Below the pieces are notes generated by a model. That model did no database searches. It saw only the letters and a list, made by a program, of their open reading frames with translations, and was not told the DNA's origin. The position numbers and the translations under genes were made by a program. Shown in pieces: positions 1,354 through 10,694 of a DNA stretch of 10,694 nt. The stretch comes from Candidatus Zixiibacteriota bacterium. GTDB taxonomy: Bacteria; RBG-13-66-14; B26-G2; WVWN01. The stretch spans positions 1-10,694 of the forward strand of contig JAUWLW010000068.1 of assembly GCA_030613505.1 (NCBI GenBank). Reading direction: 5' to 3'. Numbering within the stretch: position 1 is the stretch's first letter; each line of letters starts with the position of its first letter.

Positions 1354-1737
1354 TTAGTTATCCGTTTCCGCGGGGCGGCCGGCGAACGCCCAGACGTACG
1401 CCGACGCGCCGAATATGCCGCCCGCCAGGTCCGCGCCCAGGTCGACTACGTCGGCGCTGCGGCCCGGGACGAAGGCCTGGATGATTTCCGTCCCGGTGCC
1501 GACCAGGAGTACCGAGAAAAAGGCGACGACGAAGGCGAACGTTCCACCGCGACGCGCGGCGCCCGCCATGGCCCGGGCGGCGAGGGCGCCCAGCAGCGCG
1601 TAAGCCGCGGCGTGGCGCACTTTGTCTATGTTGAGGGCGCGCGGCTGCGGCGCCTCCGGCAACGCGACGAACGCGAAGAACACCAGCACCGCGACCCACG
1701 CGGCCCAGGGTAGATAATAAGATTTAATATTGCTCAC
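1354..1737 (-). CDS. VanZ-like small membrane protein
   Basis: A 127-aa integral membrane protein with four likely membrane segments (about 10-27, 43-59, 66-84 and 99-120). VanZ-family hallmarks are present: DKVRHAAAYALLG at 38-50, and EIIQAFVPGRSADVVDLGAD at 84-103, whose E..Q..vPgR..d..D pattern is typical. VanZ itself gives low-level teicoplanin resistance, but most VanZ-like proteins have no known role. The start is a GTG that overlaps the helicase stop codon in a GTGA arrangement, with no visible Shine-Dalgarno, so re-initiation after the helicase is likely. The longer upstream reading frame is the helicase sequence in another frame and is not used here. Its place between a helicase and its partner nuclease is unexpected and may be an operon insertion or a genuine envelope link. 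Confidence 0.8.
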   Translation of the reverse strand: MSNIKSYYLPWAAWVAVLVFFAFVALPEAPQPRALNIDKVRHAAAYALLGALAARAMAGAARRGGTFAFVVAFFSVLLVGTGTEIIQAFVPGRSADVVDLGADLAGGIFGASAYVWAFAGRPAETDN

Positions 1738-4031
1738 GTCAACAGCGCGCGGACCAGCGCGAGCGCGGCCTCCTTGTGGGGCAGGTAGTGGCCGCGGCGA
1801 AGGTCCGGGTCGCGGACCTGGTTGGGCGTGAACGTCGCGACGCCGACGCAACTCGGGCAGCCGTTCTCGCACTCGCAGCCGGCGATGAGTTCTTCGCAGC
1901 TCTTGAGGACCTCGTCCAACCGGCGGTAGGCGTGCTCGGCGTAACCCAGGCCGCCGGGGTAGACGTCGTAAATGAACGCCGCCGGCGCGCCCAGGTTCGA
2001 CGAGTCGACCACGCCGCGCAGGTCGCGCGGGTCGCACATCGCGAACAGCGGTATCACCGCCTGCAGCACGTTCTTCAGGCCGACCAGCCCCTCGAACGGA
2101 TTATAACCCATACGCGAGACGTCGCTTAGGACCTCCGGCCCGGGCGCGACGTAGAGCGCCACCGTCGGGAGCTCCACCGCCGGCAGCTCCAAGGGCGACC
2201 AGCCGATGGACTCCAGCGAGTAGAACTTTATCTTCTTGAAGCCGATGGTTCGCCACGTTACGAGCGCCTCCACCACGCCGAAGGCGCCGGCGGCGTTCTC
2301 GTGGGATTCAATTGTCTTGAGGACCCGCAGCGTCGCCTCCACCATGGCCTGGGTGTAGTAGTCGACGTCGCGCCGCTCGACGAACGCGACCTTTTGGCCC
2401 AGGTCGAGCTCGCGGACGAAGTACGTATCGCCCTGCTGCAGGTATATAGCCTCCGGGTAGAGCTGCTCCAGCGCGCTCTCGTAGTCCAGCGTGCCGACGA
2501 CGGCGTTCTCGCTGCCCGCGTCCATTATCGTTACGGTGTTGTCGGAGGAGGAGCGGAGGTTCACGTCCGCCGCGGGGTAGTCGCTCGAGAGCCACCAGTA
2601 CTTGCCGTCCTTGGCGGCCATGTTGCCCTCTTCCGCGACGACCTCGGCCACGTCGGGAGCGCTCGAGCCGAAGGCCGCCAGGTCGTCGGCGGTGAGCGGC
2701 AGCTCTGCCGCGGCGCAGCGCAGGTGTCCCGAGAGGATGTATACGTTCTCCGGGTCGATGATAGCGGCCTCGGGCGAGCGGCCGAAGACGTACTGCGGGT
2801 GGCGGGCGAGGTACTGGTCCACCGGGTCATCGTACGCCACCAGCACCGCCAGCGACGCGCCGGCGCGCCGCCCCGCGCGGCCCGACTGCTGCAGTAGCGA
2901 CGCGATGGACCCCGGGAAGCCGACGACGACCGCGGCGTCCATTCCCCCCACGTCGATGCCGAGCTCGAGCGCGTTGGTGGCGGTTACGCCTAGAAGCTGG
3001 CCGCCGAAGAGCTGCTTCTCTATCTCGCGCCGCTCCCGGGGGAGGTAGCCGCCGCGGTAGCTGCGCAGCTTGCCGTCGAACTTGGGCCCCAGCGCCTCGC
3101 GGGTGTACTTGTATATGAGTTCGGCGACGACGCGCGCCCGGGCGAAGGTCACCGACTGGACCCCCTCCTTCACCAACGCCTGAAGGATTTCCGAGGCCTC
3201 GACGTTGGCGGAGCGGCGCAGGCCCAGGCCCCGGTCCGAGAGCGGCGGGTTCAGGATGACGAAGTAGCGGTCGCCCTGCGGCGCGCCGGACTCGTCTATC
3301 AGCGTCACGTCGTCGCCCACCAGCCGCTCGGCGTGCTCCTTGGGGTTGGCGATGGTGGCGGAGGTCAGCAGGAACTGCGGCGCCGCGCCGTAGTGGGAAG
3401 CGACGCGCCGAAGCCGCCGCAGGACGTTGGCGACGTGCGAGCCGAAGATGCCGCGGTAGGCGTGGAGCTCGTCGACGACGACGTAGCGCAGCGACGAGAA
3501 GAAGCGGCCCCACCGCGCGTGGTGGGGGAGGATGCCGGCGTGGAGCATGTCCGGATTGGTGATGAGGAGGTTGGCGCCGTCGCGGAGCTTGCGGCGCGCG
3601 GTCGCCGGCGTGTCGCCGTCGTAGACGCCGGGCGTGACGCGCGATGCCACCGGCGGCGCGAGCGCCAGAAACCGGTTGAGGTTGCGGAGTTGGTCCTGGC
3701 TCAGCGCCTTGGTGGGGTAGAGGAAGAGCGCGGCGCCGCCGCCCTCGTCGTAGAAGCGCTCGAGCACCGGCAACAGGAAGCAGTACGTCTTGCCGGAGGC
3801 GGTGGGCGTCACGGCGACGACGTTTTGGCCTGCCCGGGCGGCCTCGACGTACTCGGCCTGGTGGCTGTAGAGCTCCGTGATGCCCAGGTGCCGGAGCGCC
3901 TCGGCCAGCGGCGGCGCCAGCGGCGGCTCGAGCTCGCGGTAGCGCGCCTCGCGCGCCGGGACGTGTTCGACGTGGCGGATGGCGTCGCCCTTGGTGAGCT
4001 GCAGCTCGGCGAGTACGGCGTCGATTTTCAT
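1734..4031 (-). CDS. mrfA: DEAD/DEAH-box helicase with DUF1998, MrfA/YprA family
   Basis: A complete 765-aa superfamily 2 helicase. Core motifs in order: SHQ at 56-58, Walker A TPTASGKT at 75-82, TNPDMLH at 158-164, DELH at 187-190, SAT at 224-226, ATNALELGIDVGGMD at 351-365 and QQSGRAGRR at 381-389. The C-terminal third is the DUF1998 region with YPGGLGYAEHAY near 691-702 and four cysteines (719, 721, 725, 728) in a CxCx3Cx2C cluster expected to bind zinc. This architecture and length match YprA, renamed MrfA in B. subtilis, a 3'-5' DNA helicase acting with MrfB in mitomycin-lesion repair. The start chosen is the ATG giving MKIDAVLAEL. The frame stays open upstream to 4253 but that part reads through intergenic hairpins. 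No Shine-Dalgarno precedes the ATG; a TATAAT ends 7 bases before it, so the mRNA may be leaderless. It heads the minus-strand operon. Confidence 0.93.
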   Translation of the reverse strand: MKIDAVLAELQLTKGDAIRHVEHVPAREARYRELEPPLAPPLAEALRHLGITELYSHQAEYVEAARAGQNVVAVTPTASGKTYCFLLPVLERFYDEGGGAALFLYPTKALSQDQLRNLNRFLALAPPVASRVTPGVYDGDTPATARRKLRDGANLLITNPDMLHAGILPHHARWGRFFSSLRYVVVDELHAYRGIFGSHVANVLRRLRRVASHYGAAPQFLLTSATIANPKEHAERLVGDDVTLIDESGAPQGDRYFVILNPPLSDRGLGLRRSANVEASEILQALVKEGVQSVTFARARVVAELIYKYTREALGPKFDGKLRSYRGGYLPRERREIEKQLFGGQLLGVTATNALELGIDVGGMDAAVVVGFPGSIASLLQQSGRAGRRAGASLAVLVAYDDPVDQYLARHPQYVFGRSPEAAIIDPENVYILSGHLRCAAAELPLTADDLAAFGSSAPDVAEVVAEEGNMAAKDGKYWWLSSDYPAADVNLRSSSDNTVTIMDAGSENAVVGTLDYESALEQLYPEAIYLQQGDTYFVRELDLGQKVAFVERRDVDYYTQAMVEATLRVLKTIESHENAAGAFGVVEALVTWRTIGFKKIKFYSLESIGWSPLELPAVELPTVALYVAPGPEVLSDVSRMGYNPFEGLVGLKNVLQAVIPLFAMCDPRDLRGVVDSSNLGAPAAFIYDVYPGGLGYAEHAYRRLDEVLKSCEELIAGCECENGCPSCVGVATFTPNQVRDPDLRRGHYLPHKEAALALVRALLT

Positions 4032-4037
4032 TATAAT

Positions 4038-4043
4038 ATTATA
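4038..4043 (-). promoter_or_regulatory. Probable -10 element for the mrfA operon
   Basis: A consensus TATAAT on the minus strand, with six bases between it and the A of the mrfA ATG. Normal -10 to +1 spacing puts the transcript start at or next to the ATG, giving a leaderless mRNA. That fits the absence of a Shine-Dalgarno. The best -35 at 17-bp spacing is only TTCCGC (4061-4066), so the promoter would be weak or activator-dependent. Confidence 0.5.
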
Positions 4044-4068
4044 AGATTTCGCGGCCGCAGGCGGAAGT

Positions 4069-4105
4069 AAAAAGCCGTAGCGGCAGACAAAACGCCTGCC
4101 GTTAC
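4069..4105 (-). terminator. Terminator-like hairpin between divergent promoters
   Basis: Arms GTAGCGGCAG (4077-4086) and CTGCCGTTAC (4096-4105) pair over 10 bp with one G-T wobble and a 9-nt loop. On the minus strand the hairpin is followed three bases later by TTTTT (4073-4069), the pattern of an intrinsic terminator. It lies upstream of the mrfA -10 element, so it would stop minus-strand transcripts starting further right, either insulating the two operons or attenuating a second upstream promoter. Confidence 0.4.
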
Positions 4106-4118
4106 CCCCTGCGAAAGT

Positions 4119-4143
4119 AGCGGCGGACTTTAAGTCCGCCGCT
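4119..4143. repeat. Palindromic GC hairpin in divergent region
   Basis: Near-perfect inverted repeat with 10-bp outer arms AGCGGCGGAC and GTCCGCCGCT around TTTAA. It has the same design (GC-rich arms, TTAA-type centre) as the palindrome at 148-167. It sits 24 bp upstream of the putative -35 element of the permease operon. It could be a dispersed intergenic repeat or an operator for a dimeric regulator; the sequence does not decide. Confidence 0.45.
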
Positions 4144-4166
4144 TCGAGAAATGAAGCAACATTCCC

Positions 4167-4195
4167 TTGGGTTCGATACGTATATAAGGTATAAT
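4167..4195 (+). promoter_or_regulatory. Probable sigma-70-type promoter of the permease operon
   Basis: A perfect TATAAT (4190-4195) lies 17 bp after TTGGGT (4167-4172), which matches the first three bases of the -35 consensus. A start near 4202 gives a leader of only about 10 nt containing AAGGG just before the ATG at 4212. The surrounding AT-rich stretch stands out sharply from the GC-rich genes. Confidence 0.6.
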
Positions 4196-4211
4196 CGATA
4201 TCGTAAGGGTT

Positions 4212-5477
4212 ATGAAATTTTCCCGCGAGAGGTTCGTCGTCTTTCGGGCGCACTTGCGCGAGGCCTTCGCGCTGGCGGCGCGGTCGCTGTGGGCCAACAA
4301 GATGCGCTCGCTTTTGACGGTGCTGGGCGTCTTCATCGGCGTCGCCACCGTCGTGGGCCTTATCTCGCTCATCGCCGGCCTGCGCAGCTACGTCACCAAC
4401 GTCTTCGCCACCGCCGGGACCGACACCTTCTTCGTAATGCGGATGAGCTTCATCACCACCGATTGGGAGGACTGGTACGAGGGTTTAAAGCGGCCGGACA
4501 TCACCGTCGCCGACGCCGCGGCCATCGCCGCGAGCTGTCCCTCGGTGGATTACACCGCGCCCCGCAACGTGGCGCTGAAGGAGGTCTCGTTCCGCGAGAA
4601 GAAGGTCAAGGGCGTCATCGTCATCGGGACGACGGAGGAGTTTCAGCAGATGGAGGGGCTCAAGATACGGCGGGGCCGCTTCATGACGAACGCCGAGGTC
4701 GACCACTCGAGGCAGGTTACGGGGGTGGCCTACGAGGTCGCCGACAAGCTCTTCGGCTCGAGCTCGGGCGTGGGGGAACGGATAAAAGTCGGCGGCCACG
4801 CCTTCACCGTCGTCGGCGACGCGTACCCCATGGGCTCGGTGTTCGGCCAGAACCGCGACAACAGCGTCATCATCCCCATCACGACTTTCGAGAAGATGTT
4901 CGGGACGCGCGGCATCGCGCACGGCCTGGCGGTGATCGCCCGACCCAAGCTGCCGGAGCTGGAGGGCCGGGCGGTGGACGAGGTGACGGCCCTCATGAGG
5001 CGGCGCCACCGCCTGGGGCCGGAGGAGGAGAACGACTTCGAGATCATCACCCAGGCGGCGATGGTGCGGGCGTTCGACGCGCTGACCGCGGCGCTCTTCG
5101 TCGTCATCGTCGCGGTGGGGAGCATATCGCTGCTGGTGGGCGGCGTGGGTATCATGAACATCATGATGGTCTCGGTCACGGAGCGAACGCGGGAGATAGG
5201 CGTCCGGAAGGCGGTGGGCGCGCGGCGGTCCGACATCCTGATGCAGTTTCTTATCGAGGCCGTGGTGCTCTCGGCCGGCGGCGGCGTGTTGGGCGTGGCC
5301 GGCGGCACGGCGTTGGCCTATATAATAGGGGCCGTGACGCCGGTGCCGGCCTCGCTCTCGGGCGGGGCGGTGGTGCTGGGCGTCGTCTTCTCGACGGCGG
5401 TGGGCGTCTTCTTCGGCCTGTATCCCGCGCGGCGCGCCGCCGGCATGGAGCCCATAGCCGCGCTGCGGTACGAGTAG
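4212..5477 (+). CDS. MacB/FtsX-type ABC permease subunit 1
   Basis: A 421-aa inner-membrane permease with the four-helix MacB layout: cytoplasmic N-terminal helix ending in ARSLWANKMRSLLTVLG (23-39), TM1 at about 33-56, a large periplasmic domain (about 57-288), then TM2 (291-315), TM3 (348-373) and TM4 (383-404). The loop after TM2 has the family signature SVTERTREIGVRKAVGARR (321-339), the coupling helix that contacts an ATPase, and the C-terminus ends LYPARRAAGMEPIAALRYE. Proteins of this class do not move substrate through a channel but transmit mechanical force across the membrane, as in MacB efflux or LolCDE lipoprotein extraction. It is the first gene of the plus-strand operon and is followed 4 bp later by a paralogue. 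No ATPase gene is present. Substrate cannot be inferred. Confidence 0.9.
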   Translation: MKFSRERFVVFRAHLREAFALAARSLWANKMRSLLTVLGVFIGVATVVGLISLIAGLRSYVTNVFATAGTDTFFVMRMSFITTDWEDWYEGLKRPDITVADAAAIAASCPSVDYTAPRNVALKEVSFREKKVKGVIVIGTTEEFQQMEGLKIRRGRFMTNAEVDHSRQVTGVAYEVADKLFGSSSGVGERIKVGGHAFTVVGDAYPMGSVFGQNRDNSVIIPITTFEKMFGTRGIAHGLAVIARPKLPELEGRAVDEVTALMRRRHRLGPEEENDFEIITQAAMVRAFDALTAALFVVIVAVGSISLLVGGVGIMNIMMVSVTERTREIGVRKAVGARRSDILMQFLIEAVVLSAGGGVLGVAGGTALAYIIGAVTPVPASLSGGAVVLGVVFSTAVGVFFGLYPARRAAGMEPIAALRYE

Positions 5478-5481
5478 CGTT

Positions 5482-6783
5482 ATGAAACCGCTGTGGCATA
5501 ATCTGCGCCGGCAATACTACCAATACCGCGAGGCGGCGGCGCTGGCGTTCTCGTCGCTGTGGGCCCATAAGATGCGCGCCCTCTTGACGGTCTTGGGCGT
5601 CGTCATCGGCGTCACGACCGTCATCGCGATGGTCAGCATCATCGACGGCCTGAACCAGTCCTTCGCCAACCAGATGGGTTTCCTGGGCGCCGACACGTTC
5701 TTCCTCCAGAAATATAAAGCCATCCAGTTCGGCCCCCGCCGCGAGGAACCCCGCAAAGACTTCGAGGAGGAAGACGCCGAGGCGATAATGCGCCGCTGCC
5801 CGGCGGTATCGGTGGCCGACTTCTATACCGAGATCGTCGGGCGGGCGACGTACGGCGGCAAGAAGACGGCCCTCCTCGCCATCGGCTCCACGCAGACGGA
5901 GAAGTTCGACGAGATCTTCTCGTGGTGGGTGGATGACGGCCGGATGTTGACGCAGGCCGACATCGACGCCGACCGGTACGTCGCGGTGGTGGGTTCGGCG
6001 GTGGCGGAGGCGCTGGCGCCGGAGGGCAGGATAATCGGCGAGCGGATAAAGGTCAACGGCCACCGCTTCCAGGTGGTGGGCGTCTTCGGTTACAAGGGCG
6101 AGATCTTCGGCGTCTCGATGGACAACTACATCGTCGTACCGCACGGCGCCGGCCGTAAGGCTTTCGGCAAACCCGCCGACGAAATGGGGACGGGGGGCTC
6201 GGTGATTACGGTGCGGGCGAAGTCGCCCGAGCTTCTCAATGCCGCCATCGACCAGGCCGAAGTGGTAATGCGGGAGCGGCGCAGGGTACCGCCCGAGGCC
6301 GACAACGACTTCGAGATCTATACCGCCGACTCGCTAATGGAAATATATAACCAGATAACGGGCGCGGCCTTCGCCGTCATGATCGGCATCTCCGCGGTGT
6401 CGCTTCTGGTGGGCGGCATCGGCATTATGAACATCATGCTGGTCTCGGTTACGGAGCGCACGCGCGAGATAGGCGTCCGCAAGGCGCTCGGCGCGCGCCG
6501 GCGCGACGTCATGGCGCAGTTCATCGCCGAGGCCACCGTAATCTCGCTCACCGGCGGCATAATCGGCATCGTCATCGGCGCCGTCATCGGCGAAGGGGTG
6601 AGCTTGTTGACGAAAGTCCTGTCGGACGCCGGCGCGCCGGTGCCGTTCCTGCCGGCGGCTATCAAGGTATGGTCGGTTTCCCTGGGGTTCCTGTTTTCGC
6701 TGGCGGTGGGCCTCTTCTTCGGCATCTACCCGGCGAACAAGGCGGCGAAGTTGAACCCCATCGAGGCGCTGCGCTACGAATAA
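5482..6783 (+). CDS. MacB/FtsX-type ABC permease subunit 2
   Basis: A 433-aa paralogue of the preceding permease with the same topology: TM1 about 33-56 after SSLWAHKMRALLTVLG, periplasmic domain to about 290, TM2 293-317, TM3 349-370, TM4 397-415. The coupling region SVTERTREIGVRKALGARR (322-340) is almost identical to that of subunit 1, while the periplasmic domains differ much more. The two probably form a heterodimer, as LolC and LolE do. The periplasmic part includes an acidic PRKDFEEEDAE stretch (90-100). It starts 4 bp after subunit 1 with only a weak GAG upstream, so translation is probably coupled. The ATPase that powers it must be encoded elsewhere. Confidence 0.9.
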   Translation: MKPLWHNLRRQYYQYREAAALAFSSLWAHKMRALLTVLGVVIGVTTVIAMVSIIDGLNQSFANQMGFLGADTFFLQKYKAIQFGPRREEPRKDFEEEDAEAIMRRCPAVSVADFYTEIVGRATYGGKKTALLAIGSTQTEKFDEIFSWWVDDGRMLTQADIDADRYVAVVGSAVAEALAPEGRIIGERIKVNGHRFQVVGVFGYKGEIFGVSMDNYIVVPHGAGRKAFGKPADEMGTGGSVITVRAKSPELLNAAIDQAEVVMRERRRVPPEADNDFEIYTADSLMEIYNQITGAAFAVMIGISAVSLLVGGIGIMNIMLVSVTERTREIGVRKALGARRRDVMAQFIAEATVISLTGGIIGIVIGAVIGEGVSLLTKVLSDAGAPVPFLPAAIKVWSVSLGFLFSLAVGLFFGIYPANKAAKLNPIEALRYE

Positions 6784-6799: not shown

Positions 6800-7351
6800 A
6801 TGAGGAACATAACGGCGAAGGTTTACCCGTATCTGTTGACTGTCGGCCTCGCGGCCGCGAGTTTCGCCGCGGAGGATGAGATAACTAAGACGCCGGCCGG
6901 CCTCGAGATCGAACCCGTGACGGCTACGTGCGAAGAGGTCCTCGCGCCCAACGTCGTGCGCGTCAGGGTATTGGGCGAGTGCGCCCTGATCGGCGTCCAA
7001 CCCGTCGGGAAGAAAGCCCCCTATTACGGCGAGGCGCTGTCGTTCGTTCGGGAGCGGGTCGCGGGCCGCGAGGTCCGCGTCGAGGTTTGCCCCAATATCC
7101 CGGCGAACGAGAAGGGGCAAAACCGCGCCGTCATTTACTATCGCCGCGACGGCAAGTGGTGGAACCTCAACGTCGAGCTCATAAGCGCGGGCCTCGCGAA
7201 AGTCGCCGACGTCCCGGCGTGCCACGTTCCGACGAAGTCCTGGCTCACGTACGAGAAAGAGGCGCGCGACGCGCGGCGCGGGATGTGGACGGACCTCCCG
7301 GTCCCCAAGCCGTCCACGAGCGAGGGGCCCGACATCTCCGACTTCGAGTGA
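6800..7351 (+). CDS. Exported SNase-fold protein lacking catalytic residues
   Basis: A 183-aa protein with a signal peptide (about residues 1-24, hydrophobic core 11-24) and a staphylococcal-nuclease (TNase) fold. Landmarks that align to the family are YYGEALSFVRERV (75-87), NLNVELISAGLAKVADV (122-138) and EARDARRGMWT (154-164). The active site is gone: aligned with Staphylococcus nuclease, Asp21 becomes Asn51, Arg35 becomes Ala62, Asp40 Gln67, Glu43 Gly70 and Arg87 Gln107. The reading frame is intact and the rest of the fold is conserved, so this looks like a retained pseudoenzyme, possibly a nucleic-acid- or protein-binding module as in Tudor-SN proteins. Four cysteines (44, 61, 97, 141) could form disulfides in the periplasm. 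An AGG seven bases upstream supports the ATG. It lies between the permeases and the second exonuclease, overlapping the latter by one base. Confidence 0.82.
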   Translation: MRNITAKVYPYLLTVGLAAASFAAEDEITKTPAGLEIEPVTATCEEVLAPNVVRVRVLGECALIGVQPVGKKAPYYGEALSFVRERVAGREVRVEVCPNIPANEKGQNRAVIYYRRDGKWWNLNVELISAGLAKVADVPACHVPTKSWLTYEKEARDARRGMWTDLPVPKPSTSEGPDISDFE

Positions 7352-8142
7352 TGGCCGACGCGCGCGACTTCCGGGCCAGGCTGCGCGAGATAGCTCGCGC
7401 CCGGGCGCGCGGCGACCACCCCCCAAAACCCGAGCCCCCCGCCGACAGCGTCGTCGCCGTAGACCAATTGTGGCCCGCATCGCGAGGGGAGAGTTTTTGG
7501 CGCTGCCGGCCCGAGTGGCCGGAGGGCTACCCGCCCCCGGAAATCCCCCCAACCTTTATCGGTACCTTCGCGGCCTTCGACGTGGAGTCGCTGGGCCGCA
7601 CGCCCAAGCCGCTCTTCCTCGTCGGCTTCGGCTATATATCGGCGGACGGCGTAGCGTTCGAGCAATACCTCGCGGGCCACCCGGATGAGGAGGGGGCGGT
7701 GCTTGAAGCTACGGCTCGAGCGCTCGCCGAAGCGGACGTCCTCCTCTCCTACAACGGCCGCACCTTCGACATCCCCATAATCCGCGACCGCCTGCGCTGG
7801 TGGCGGCTGCCGTACGAGGAGCCGCGGCACCACGTCGACCTCTTGTGGCTCGTCCGGAGGTATTACAAAGAGCGGCTAAGTATGCCCGCCTGCGGCCTGA
7901 CCGACGCCGAGCAATACGTCCTCGGCGTCCGAAGGCCGGCGGACATCCATTCCTCGCAGGTCCCGGAGCTTTACGAGCGCTTCGTAAAGGTGGGCGACGC
8001 GCGGCCGCTCGAGCCCGTACTCCGGCACAACCTCTACGACCTGGCGGCGACGGCGTTACTTTATCTTAGAGTATCGAGAGAAATACCCGAAGCGTTGGAG
8101 GATGGGGCGGATAACGGGGCGGATACAAAGGACCTTTTCTAG
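7351..8142 (+). CDS. Second YprB-type DnaQ-fold exonuclease
   Basis: A 263-aa RNase_H_2-family protein, a paralogue of the nuclease at 587-1351 but clearly diverged. The catalytic domain begins near residue 70 with FDVES (D77, E79), continues with SYNGRTFDIPII (133-144, D140) and HVDLLW (161-166), and ends with HNLYD (226-230). The His in the last motif makes it DEDDh-like, unlike the Tyr of its paralogue. Residues 1-69 form a Pro- and Arg-rich lead-in with a WPASRGESFW segment, resembling the linker seen before the nuclease domain in longer YprB proteins. There is no signal peptide, so it should be cytoplasmic although the gene before it encodes an exported protein. The ATG overlaps the upstream stop as TGATG, implying coupled translation. 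It is the last gene of the operon, before a hairpin terminator. Substrate is unknown; single-stranded or structured DNA is plausible. Confidence 0.82.
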   Translation: MADARDFRARLREIARARARGDHPPKPEPPADSVVAVDQLWPASRGESFWRCRPEWPEGYPPPEIPPTFIGTFAAFDVESLGRTPKPLFLVGFGYISADGVAFEQYLAGHPDEEGAVLEATARALAEADVLLSYNGRTFDIPIIRDRLRWWRLPYEEPRHHVDLLWLVRRYYKERLSMPACGLTDAEQYVLGVRRPADIHSSQVPELYERFVKVGDARPLEPVLRHNLYDLAATALLYLRVSREIPEALEDGADNGADTKDLF

Positions 8143-8219: not shown

Positions 8220-8600
8220 TCACTCGCGCGGGAAATTTTCTGAAAAAATATCGAAGAATTCCCGCATGACGTCGACGGCCTTTTCTGCTAACTGCCGGTC
8301 CGGCTTGCTGCCGGGGTATCGTACCTCTACCGCCGATACGCTCAAATTGACTAATGCTTCTTCGAGGTCGTTAAAAACGGGCGTTTTGCTCTTTATTAAA
8401 TCTTGCAGGAATTTCAAATCGTGCGTTCGAGGGAAGTCGACGCCGAGGTCTACCAGAAGGGCTTTCATCGCTTTCTCGACGGCTTGTTGGGCGTGGAAGC
8501 AAACCGCGCTGAAGGCGGGCGGCTCCGCGGCGAGTTCGCGTTCCGCGACGCGGAAATCCTCGTCGGCTTTGTTAAGCCACTCTTTAGCGAGTTGTTTCAC
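8220..8600 (-). CDS. HEPN-domain protein partnered with a nucleotidyltransferase
   Basis: A 126-aa all-helical HEPN-domain protein (Pfam HEPN type). Family landmarks are EWLNKADEDFRVAE (7-20), the FHAQQAVEKAMKALL core (35-49), THDLKFL (59-65) and RYPG (94-97). The RNase toxin motif Rx4-6H of HepT-like toxins is not visible: the only His after an Arg at short distance is R58-T-H60. It may therefore be a non-cleaving partner or substrate-binding subunit rather than an active toxin. The start is a GTG inside the end of the upstream nucleotidyltransferase gene (17-bp overlap), with GGAG four bases before it. The gene order nucleotidyltransferase then HEPN, on overlapping frames, is typical of MNT/HEPN pairs such as HI0073/HI0074. 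It converges on the terminator at 8165-8196. Confidence 0.87.
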   Translation of the reverse strand: MKQLAKEWLNKADEDFRVAERELAAEPPAFSAVCFHAQQAVEKAMKALLVDLGVDFPRTHDLKFLQDLIKSKTPVFNDLEEALVNLSVSAVEVRYPGSKPDRQLAEKAVDVMREFFDIFSENFPRE

Positions 8601-8910
8601 TTATCTCCAGGCCGGTCGACTCAATATGGCGGAAGAAGCCGTCGCCCAGCGCCAGCCGTTCGTCGAGTTGACCCCGCGTTCTCACCAATACGTCCACCGG
8701 GACCGGGAGCTCGAGCGCGGCCCGGGCGCGAGCCGCGGCCTCGACGGGCCCCTCTTCCGCGGCGTCAAGGACGATCAAAATGTCGACGTCGCTGTCGGGC
8801 GTCTCCTCGCCCGCCGCGTACGAGCCGAAAACCTTGACAGAAACCAGCCTCTCGCCAAACAAACGGCGTAAGGTTTCGGCGATGATGGCGAAAATTTCTT
8901 CCTTAACCAT
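8584..8910 (-). CDS. Minimal nucleotidyltransferase (MNT) of a HEPN/MNT pair
   Basis: A 108-aa protein of the DNA polymerase beta-like nucleotidyltransferase superfamily. The signature GSx10DxD is intact (G29, S30, D41, D43), and a third acidic residue is present in PVDVLV (D73), so the active site looks complete. Related MntA proteins transfer AMP to a HEPN toxin to silence it; whether this one does so depends on a suitable target in its partner. The start chosen is the ATG of MVKEEIFAI. The frame is open further upstream but that part lies in the gap after the glycosyltransferase. No Shine-Dalgarno is visible and an AT-rich -10-like box is very close, so a leaderless or near-leaderless mRNA is possible. 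It overlaps the HEPN gene by 17 bp, and the two are surely co-translated. Confidence 0.88.
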   Translation of the reverse strand: MVKEEIFAIIAETLRRLFGERLVSVKVFGSYAAGEETPDSDVDILIVLDAAEEGPVEAAARARAALELPVPVDVLVRTRGQLDERLALGDGFFRHIESTGLEISETTR

Positions 8911-8919
8911 TACGTTGTC

Positions 8920-8930
8920 AATATAGCATA
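8920..8930 (-). promoter_or_regulatory. Candidate -10 region for the MNT/HEPN pair
   Basis: Within the 43-bp gap after the glycosyltransferase gene, the minus strand reads TATGCTATATT. Either TATGCT (14 nt before the ATG) or TATATT (9 nt before) could act as a -10 element. No convincing -35 is seen. If used, the leader is under 10 nt and the pair is expressed separately from the genes to its right. Confidence 0.35.
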
Positions 8931-8953
8931 CTTCGACGGCGCGTAGCCGTTTT

Positions 8954-10036
8954 TCAGACGCGCTTGCCGAACCGCGTAGCCAACTCCACAAACGCCTCCT
9001 CGCTCCGCTTCATATTATCCCGCCAAAGGCCCTTGGCCAACACGACCGTGCGGTTGGCCTCCCGCGCGCGCTCGCGCAGGCCAACGTCGCGGGCGGCCTT
9101 TGTAATCGACTCGGCCAGCGCCGCGGCGTCGTCCAGCGGTACGGACAATCCCACGGCGCCGGCCTCGAGCCACTGCCGCGTCGCCGGGATGTCCGCCACC
9201 ACCGGGAAGCAGCCCGCCGCCAGCCCCTCCAATAGCGATATGTTCGCGCCGTCGGAGCGCGACGTCGTAACGAAGATGTCGGCGTCGCGCAGCTGCGCCG
9301 CTACCTCCGCGAGCGGTACCGACCCGAGGAACGAGACGCGCTCGGCCAGGCCCATCTCCCGGACTTGCGCCTCGACCTTGGGCCGGAGGATGCCGTCGCT
9401 CAGGAAGATGAGCTTCGCCCGCGGCAGCGCCTCGAAGACGGCGGGCAACGCCGCGAGCAGCTGCTCGAAGTTGTACACCGGCTTGAAGTGGCGCGTGTGG
9501 ATGAGGACGACGTCTTCCGGGGGCCGGGGCGCCCGCGTGGTCATCGTGAAAACGTCCGCGTCCACGCCGAAGTGGTTGACGACTACCCTGGCCCGGTCGC
9601 CCCCCAGCGCGACGATGCGCGCCGTCATGTGGTCCGCCATCGACGTAATGAGGTCGGCGCGCTTGAGGACGAACTGGATGCGCTTGCGGTGCAGCCACGA
9701 CCAGTCCGGCTCGAGCAGGACGTCGGTGCCCCAGGCCGAAGCCGCCACCGGCCTCGCGCCGCACAGTATCCCCAACGGCCCGTACGAGCCGAGCTCCTGC
9801 GCCGAGACGACGTCCGGGTTTATGGCGCGGGCGAGCTTGCGTACCGTCGGCAAGTGCGCGAGATATTTGAACATGAAGGCCCGCGGCAGGCGGCTTTCAA
9901 TATAATAGGTCTTGCCCGGGACGGGCGGACCCTCCTCGAACGTGATCAGGTGACACTCGTGGCCCGCGGCGTCGAAGTACTCCACCCAGCGGTGGGTGTG
10001 GTTCAGCGAGCGGTCCGATAGAAATAGTATCCTCAT
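8954..10036 (-). CDS. GT4-like glycosyltransferase
   Basis: A 360-aa GT-B-fold glycosyltransferase. The N-terminal acceptor domain opens with MRILFLSDRSLNHTHRWVEY, and the gene has the usual HFGVDADVF segment at 155-163 that precedes the nucleotide-sugar domain. The C-terminal domain carries the GT4-type pocket SRSDGANISLLEGLAAG (259-275), where D262 and E270 hold the places of the ExxxxxxxE pair. The Asp form is common in a GT4 subgroup. There is no signal peptide or membrane helix; such enzymes act at the cytoplasmic face on lipid- or glycan-linked acceptors, here unknown. The ATG overlaps the endonuclease III stop as ATGA, with GGA eight bases upstream, so it is the second gene of an operon with nth. 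Longer in-frame starts would run through nth and are rejected. No other polysaccharide genes are in view. Confidence 0.87.
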   Translation of the reverse strand: MRILFLSDRSLNHTHRWVEYFDAAGHECHLITFEEGPPVPGKTYYIESRLPRAFMFKYLAHLPTVRKLARAINPDVVSAQELGSYGPLGILCGARPVAASAWGTDVLLEPDWSWLHRKRIQFVLKRADLITSMADHMTARIVALGGDRARVVVNHFGVDADVFTMTTRAPRPPEDVVLIHTRHFKPVYNFEQLLAALPAVFEALPRAKLIFLSDGILRPKVEAQVREMGLAERVSFLGSVPLAEVAAQLRDADIFVTTSRSDGANISLLEGLAAGCFPVVADIPATRQWLEAGAVGLSVPLDDAAALAESITKAARDVGLRERAREANRTVVLAKGLWRDNMKRSEEAFVELATRFGKRV

Positions 10037-10694
10037 TCGAACGTTCCGCGCGAGGGGCAAAGGTCGGCCAGAACGCACGCGTCGCACGCGGGCCGCCGCG
10101 CCGCGCAGACGTCGCGGCCGTGTCGTATAAGGCCGAGGTGCAGCTCGCGCGCCCGGCCCTGCGGGCAATGTTCGTCCCAGAATTTGTGGGCCGCGTCCGC
10201 GGTCGCCTTGGCCGGGATGAAGCCGAGGCGCTTCGTCAATCTCAAGATGTGCGTGTCCACCGGGAAGACGTCTCGGCCGAACGAGAAGAGCAGGACGACG
10301 CGCGCCGTCTTGGCGCCGACGCCGGGCAGGCTCTCAAGCCACGCCAACGCCTCGCCGTCGGCCATCTTCTTTAATAAAAACAAGTCCGTGCTGCCGCGCC
10401 GCTTGAGGACTTCGCGGGTTATGTCTTTCAGGTATCGCGCCTTCACGCGCTCCAGGCCGCCGAGGCGGATGCGCGAGGCGATGGTCCGGACGTTCGCCGT
10501 CGCGAGGTCGTCGAGCCGCGGGAACCGTTCCTTAAGCGAGGCGTACGTCCGCGCGCTGTTCACGTCGGTGGTGTTCTGGCTGAGTACCGTTTGCACCAGC
10601 TCGTCGAAGGGGGGGCGGCGCCGCCGCCGGGGCGTGCCGTACGCCGCGGCCAACCGGCGTGCTACCGCGGCGACCCGGCGTTTTGTTTCGGCGC
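10033..10694 (-). CDS. nth: Endonuclease III (Nth), 5' end beyond the window
   Basis: A base-excision repair DNA glycosylase/AP lyase that removes oxidised pyrimidines. The helix-hairpin-helix reads LPGVGAKTARVVL, with the Lys equivalent to E. coli Lys120, followed by VDTHI with the catalytic Asp (E. coli Asp138). The [4Fe-4S] site is complete near the C-terminus: the cysteine spacing in CAARRPACDACVLADLC is Cx6Cx2Cx5C, exactly as in E. coli Nth. The segment FDELVQTVLSQNTTDVNS matches the N-terminal core. An internal TTG at 10653 could serve as start, but the frame stays open to the edge and encodes ETKRRVAAVARRLAAAYG, the expected first helix, so the true start lies beyond 10694 and the gene is incomplete here. 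It is followed with a 4-bp overlap by the glycosyltransferase. Confidence 0.93.
   Translation of the reverse strand, partial: AETKRRVAAVARRLAAAYGTPRRRRRPPFDELVQTVLSQNTTDVNSARTYASLKERFPRLDDLATANVRTIASRIRLGGLERVKARYLKDITREVLKRRGSTDLFLLKKMADGEALAWLESLPGVGAKTARVVLLFSFGRDVFPVDTHILRLTKRLGFIPAKATADAAHKFWDEHCPQGRARELHLGLIRHGRDVCAARRPACDACVLADLCPSRGTFE

Follow-up and report, generated by a model that had tools for sequence, protein, structure and literature searches.

A probably exported, single-domain SNase-fold protein conserved across a bacterial class without the active site of staphylococcal nuclease

Asp21 and Asp40 are the calcium ligands of staphylococcal nuclease (thermonuclease, PF00565). 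Catalysis involves a phosphate coordinated by calcium, a Glu43-bound water, and Arg35 and Arg87, two arginines that polarise the phosphate (PMC8436206). The fold is retained with degenerate metal-binding residues in Tudor-SN (SND1), a eukaryotic protein of tandem SN repeats plus a Tudor domain, in which the SN2, SN4 and SN5 domains are degenerate (PMC5900569). Degenerate SN domains in Tudor-SN, and pseudoenzymes as a class, are already known; what we did not find described, in a limited search of the open-access literature, is a free-standing bacterial SNase, probably exported and conserved without its active site, i.e. a lone bacterial family fixed over a class.

The window studied here, the whole 10,694-nucleotide stretch of a Candidatus Zixiibacteriota genome (G000), encodes a candidate for such a protein, called pseudo-SNase below (Table 1). 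Its frame is intact as the first-pass annotation had claimed, with ATG at 6800, TGA at 7349-7351 and 183 aa, and the coordinates and residue numbers given there are correct. The Pfam scan finds one SNase domain (PF00565, 40 bits, cut-off 21, E 5.7e-10) and no further domains. In the PDB its closest sequence is SND1 (Tudor-SN), and S. aureus thermonuclease is also among the nearest. By eye, the N-terminus reads MRNITAKVYPYLLTVGLAAASFA, with AE following the cut, and a similar hydrophobic N-terminus occurs in all six orthologues; the protein is probably exported.

All of the fold motifs quoted in the first-pass annotation are present, and both kinds of comparison it proposed, by HMM and by structure model, agree with its assignment of the fold. 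An AlphaFold model of residues 39-168 (mean pLDDT 93, pTM 0.87) matches S. aureus nuclease residues 9-141 with Z 19.6 and rmsd 1.6 Å over 122 residues, from an alignment of this segment with one orthologue (L018) and eight viral catalytic SNases that is biased to the SNase fold. A model from two sequences is of low confidence (pLDDT 51), and its best Foldseek matches are still SNases; we count it, with the family match, as further support because the larger alignment leans towards that fold. According to the high-confidence model, an SNase OB-fold barrel plus helices is present. In predicted fold, probable export and single-domain organization the protein resembles staphylococcal nuclease, from which it differs by the replacement of five catalytic positions and by newly fixed residues, R109 and W120 among them. 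With Tudor-SN it shares the retention of the fold beside degenerate metal-binding residues, but it is a single, probably exported bacterial domain, the Pfam scan of its 183 aa showing neither tandem SN repeats nor a Tudor domain.

Table 1. Positions of pseudo-SNase, its residues of interest and its neighbours in the window
Feature	Position	Strand	Basis and remarks
MacB-type permease 1 (MacB_PCD + FtsX)	4212..5477	+	probably same operon in this genus
MacB-type permease 2	5482..6783	+	ends 16 bases ahead of pseudo-SNase
Pseudo-SNase, 183 aa, probably exported	6800..7351	+	ORF; PF00565; orthologues in five other genomes
Probable signal peptide	6800..6868	+	residues 1-23, cut after SFA; read by eye
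SNase-fold domain	6914..7303	+	residues 39-168; AlphaFold model and match to SNase residues 9-141
N51 (Ca-binding Asp21 position)	6950..6952	+	alignment
A62 (catalytic Arg35 position)	6983..6985	+	alignment; Arg in G005 and G006 orthologues
Q67 (Ca-binding Asp40 position)	6998..7000	+	alignment
G70 (general base Glu43 position)	7007..7009	+	alignment; variable in clade (G/D/K/S/N/S)
R86	7055..7057	+	family-invariant; absent here in nine catalytic SNases
Q107 (catalytic Arg87 position)	7118..7120	+	alignment
R109 (SNase position 89)	7124..7126	+	family-invariant; Leu in 9/9 catalytic SNases compared
Y114	7139..7141	+	invariant, family-specific
W120 and N122	7157..7165	+	invariant, family-specific
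MrfB-like exonuclease (PF13482, 98.9 bits)	7351..8142	+	start overlaps pseudo-SNase stop
Terminator-like stem-loop	8172..8191		pattern scan; after exonuclease, could serve either strand

When the protein is aligned with G000:C86, the catalytic SNase that this genome encodes at another locus, and with further SNases, A49, N51, A62, Q67, G70 and Q107 fall at D19, D21, R35, D40, E43 and R87. Each residue that a catalytic SNase requires is replaced: the aspartates Asp21 and Asp40 by N51 and Q67, and Glu43, Arg35 and Arg87 by G70, A62 and Q107, a list on which the first-pass annotation was exactly correct. Against the NCBIfam EcnA profile for a calcium-activated nuclease, pseudo-SNase scores 22.9 bits, below the curated cut-off of 180 bits. 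D21, D40, E43 and R87 are absent from all six orthologues, while R35 is missing across the order yet kept in the two most distant ones (G005 and G006), so the active site was lost stepwise. This R35 is the one exception to the finding that no orthologue retains the Asp, Arg or Glu; orthologues that did retain them would, according to the first-pass annotation, have meant simple decay of this copy.

The former active-site columns vary across the family, D21 being N or V, D40 being Q, R, K or T, and E43 being G, D, K, S, N and S in turn, and therefore no new catalytic set stands in place of the old. In one profile alignment a G006 Arg falls in the R87 column; the family alignments put a Tyr there and align the Arg with R109 instead. 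That R109 is invariant in the family and lies two residues past the Arg87 position could point to a nuclease whose site has been rebuilt from this and other residues, but the D21, D40 and E43 columns hold no conserved carboxylates, and we consider such an enzyme very unlikely.

Loss on this scale is rare among SNases. A search of 290 genomes plus follow-up regions, once duplicates and the pseudo clade were set aside, gave 83 other SNase domains, which are part of the matches, strongest first, and hence tilted towards well-conserved domains. In this sample all five catalytic residues occur in 70 domains and four in nine; of the other four, L049 and L091 are partial matches, L123 has three of the residues, and L052, from G154, has none and is the only clear all-five loss. 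Judged by these sequence counts, loss of all five in pseudo-SNase is far from chance. In seven of the 83 domains (e.g. L054, L055, L069) the calcium ligand Asp40 is Asn in an otherwise intact site.

The L052 protein (also L104; G154:C1:1453507-1453842) is a second SNase-like, apparently exported protein that has lost all catalytic residues, in an unrelated genome; its gene lies downstream of a membrane-protein gene with a thioredoxin-like stretch. Like pseudo-SNase it is a single domain with a hydrophobic N-terminus and the five catalytic residues gone. The tree places it with the pseudo clade, but its branch there is very long and was flagged as unreliable by the program. Since its distances to the two profiles are about the same (36.5 bits to the pseudo family, 38.5 bits to the catalytic one), an independent loss is probable, even if the tree leaves room for another reading.

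Five other genomes have an orthologue of pseudo-SNase: G001 and G003 from the genus of G000, G004 from the same order, and G005 and G006 from the same class, making six genomes with G000. None turned up in the phylum's other family or in the additional genomes covered; 386 genomes searched with a profile gave no close relatives outside the class, and viral contigs contained no relatives of the family. The other SNases read from the phylum retain DGDT and most of the remaining catalytic residues. Loss of the gene from G002, also of this genus, was considered and rejected: the apparent absence is an assembly gap of Ns (L029 8320-8419) inside the second permease gene and is uninformative. The six pseudo-SNases form one clade (support 98/97) with the branching order of the genomes.

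Within the genus, the Nei-Gojobori dN/dS of pseudo-SNase is 0.148-0.210, no higher than that of the catalytic SNase paralogue of its own genome (0.202-0.286); values for the exonuclease and the second permease are 0.29-0.32 and 0.11-0.13. The gene is under purifying selection and is maintained. One might still see a decaying copy in the stepwise disappearance of the active site, with R35 remaining in G005 and G006. This is ruled out, or very nearly so, because dN/dS is 0.15-0.21, frames are intact in all six genomes, and the protein is conserved over the class, with structural motifs retained and a loss older than the class. As in pseudoenzymes generally, the catalytic residues are consistently missing while fold and selection are retained. 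We are highly confident that pseudo-SNase is conserved and that it does not catalyse by the SNase mechanism, and the suggestion that selection acts on a non-catalytic role gains support from this monophyletic, class-wide family without an active site.

The first-pass annotation put the gene between MacB-type permeases and an exonuclease; the permease pair lies upstream of it and the exonuclease, which is MrfB-like, downstream. The four genes run on one strand in this order in G000, G001 and G003, with gaps in the present genome of 4 bases between the permeases and 16 before pseudo-SNase, and a one-base overlap (TGATG, 7349-7353) with the exonuclease. Within the genus this shared strand, short gap and identical order fit the proposal that pseudo-SNase assists the two MacB permeases as an adaptor or accessory protein in the periplasm. 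The adjacency does not extend beyond the genus, however: the MacB pair of G004 lies at 1757 kb and pseudo-SNase at 1152 kb, ~600 kb apart, the closest MacB-type genes of G005 are ~15 kb off, and those of G006 are on another contig. MacA-type adaptors, moreover, have hairpin and lipoyl parts that a single OB-fold domain does not provide, and in the Pfam scan pseudo-SNase has its SNase domain only, with no hairpin, lipoyl or barrel domain. The adaptor role, raised in the first-pass annotation, thus finds little in its favour, and we regard it as highly improbable.

The exonuclease is the more widely conserved neighbour; it is shared with G001, G003 and G004, where it is still 3' of pseudo-SNase, a linkage one rank wider than the genus-only MacB adjacency. 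In G005 and G006 neither the permease pair nor the exonuclease adjoins the gene. The exonuclease matches Exonuclease MrfB 8un9 (E 1e-16), and by eye it retains the D/E/D/H/D residues; MrfB of B. subtilis is a DEDDh DNA exonuclease (PMC11194089). It has no visible signal peptide and is therefore probably in a compartment other than that of pseudo-SNase.

Some further genes in and around these loci can be mentioned. (i) The window has two RNase_H_2 genes of the MrfB-like kind, the neighbour at 7351-8142 (+) and one at 587-1351 (-; PF13482); near the latter, at 1734-4253 (-), is an MrfA/YprA-like helicase gene (DEAD, MZB, WHD_HRQ1; NCBIfam TIGR03817), and the two form an apparent MrfAB repair pair. 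(ii) At 8220-8991 (-) a HEPN protein and an MNT nucleotidyltransferase are encoded in overlapping frames, an arrangement resembling a toxin-antitoxin system, the MntA match being under its cut-off. (iii) An endonuclease III-like DNA glycosylase gene (HhH-GPD, EndIII iron-sulphur domain) at 10033-10692 (-) is truncated by the window edge. (iv) A gene pair for a TlpA-like thioredoxin and a putative outer-membrane barrel, recognized by eye, occurs near pseudo-SNase in G006 (L023 1759-3775), and a like pair is near the catalytic SNase in G000 (L024 10872-12962, G000:C86).

Certain residues are invariant among the six pseudo-SNases and absent at the same positions from nine catalytic SNases, namely R86, R109, V111, Y114, W120, N122, V135 and K153, where 'invariant' stands for few independent lineages, three of the six sequences being of one genus. 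Some of them may be structural. R86, R109, Y114, W120 and N122 are of kinds often seen in binding patches. Basic character is not conserved among the mature proteins: pI is 4.4-5.9 in five of the six and 8.4 in the G003 orthologue.

Binding of nucleic acid without cutting, perhaps to hold extracellular or incoming DNA or RNA in the periplasm, would have a precedent in the SN domains of Tudor-SN, which bind RNA despite mostly degenerate catalytic residues (PMC5900569), and the more conserved neighbour is an exonuclease. That enzyme, however, is probably in a different compartment, most mature pseudo-SNases are acidic (at pH 7 the charge is -12 in G004 and -17 in G005), and the two phosphate-polarising arginines of SNase, R35 and R87 (PMC8436206), are not retained together. 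We think this role unlikely, though worth keeping in mind. A protein or peptide would be a likelier ligand than bare nucleic acid, in view of the mostly acidic character of the family, the free variation of the old site, which has no conserved basic residues, and the newly fixed residues of the kinds seen in binding patches.

Regulation of a catalytic SNase paralogue, for example as its inhibitor or as partner in a heterodimer, is suggested by the co-occurrence of the two in five of the six genomes. But SNase is active as a monomer, the pseudo-SNase and catalytic genes are unlinked, and no catalytic SNase was found in G006 (91% complete), which has pseudo-SNase; we hold such regulation to be quite unlikely.

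On balance we favour, as somewhat better than an even bet, an exported, non-catalytic SNase-fold binding protein, a lineage-restricted pseudoenzyme kept as a non-enzymatic module of the envelope. Cleavage by the SNase mechanism would not take place, because nothing is left of the calcium-binding aspartates, the glutamate general base or the arginines. The probably exported protein would be retained as a non-enzymatic part of the cell envelope, its fold now serving as a binding platform. More speculatively, and with considerable doubt, a secreted nuclease may long ago have been turned, for the whole class, into a receptor or adaptor of the envelope: the old catalytic groove would have been freed from selection, and a new Arg/Tyr/Trp/Asn patch would have arisen to recognize a specific ligand, possibly in connection with the function of the MrfB-like exonuclease.

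A match to PF00565 is accordingly no proof that an exported protein is a nuclease. The family is a small, well-defined system for the roles of the SNase fold after catalysis, and most of its genomes supply a control in their catalytic paralogue.
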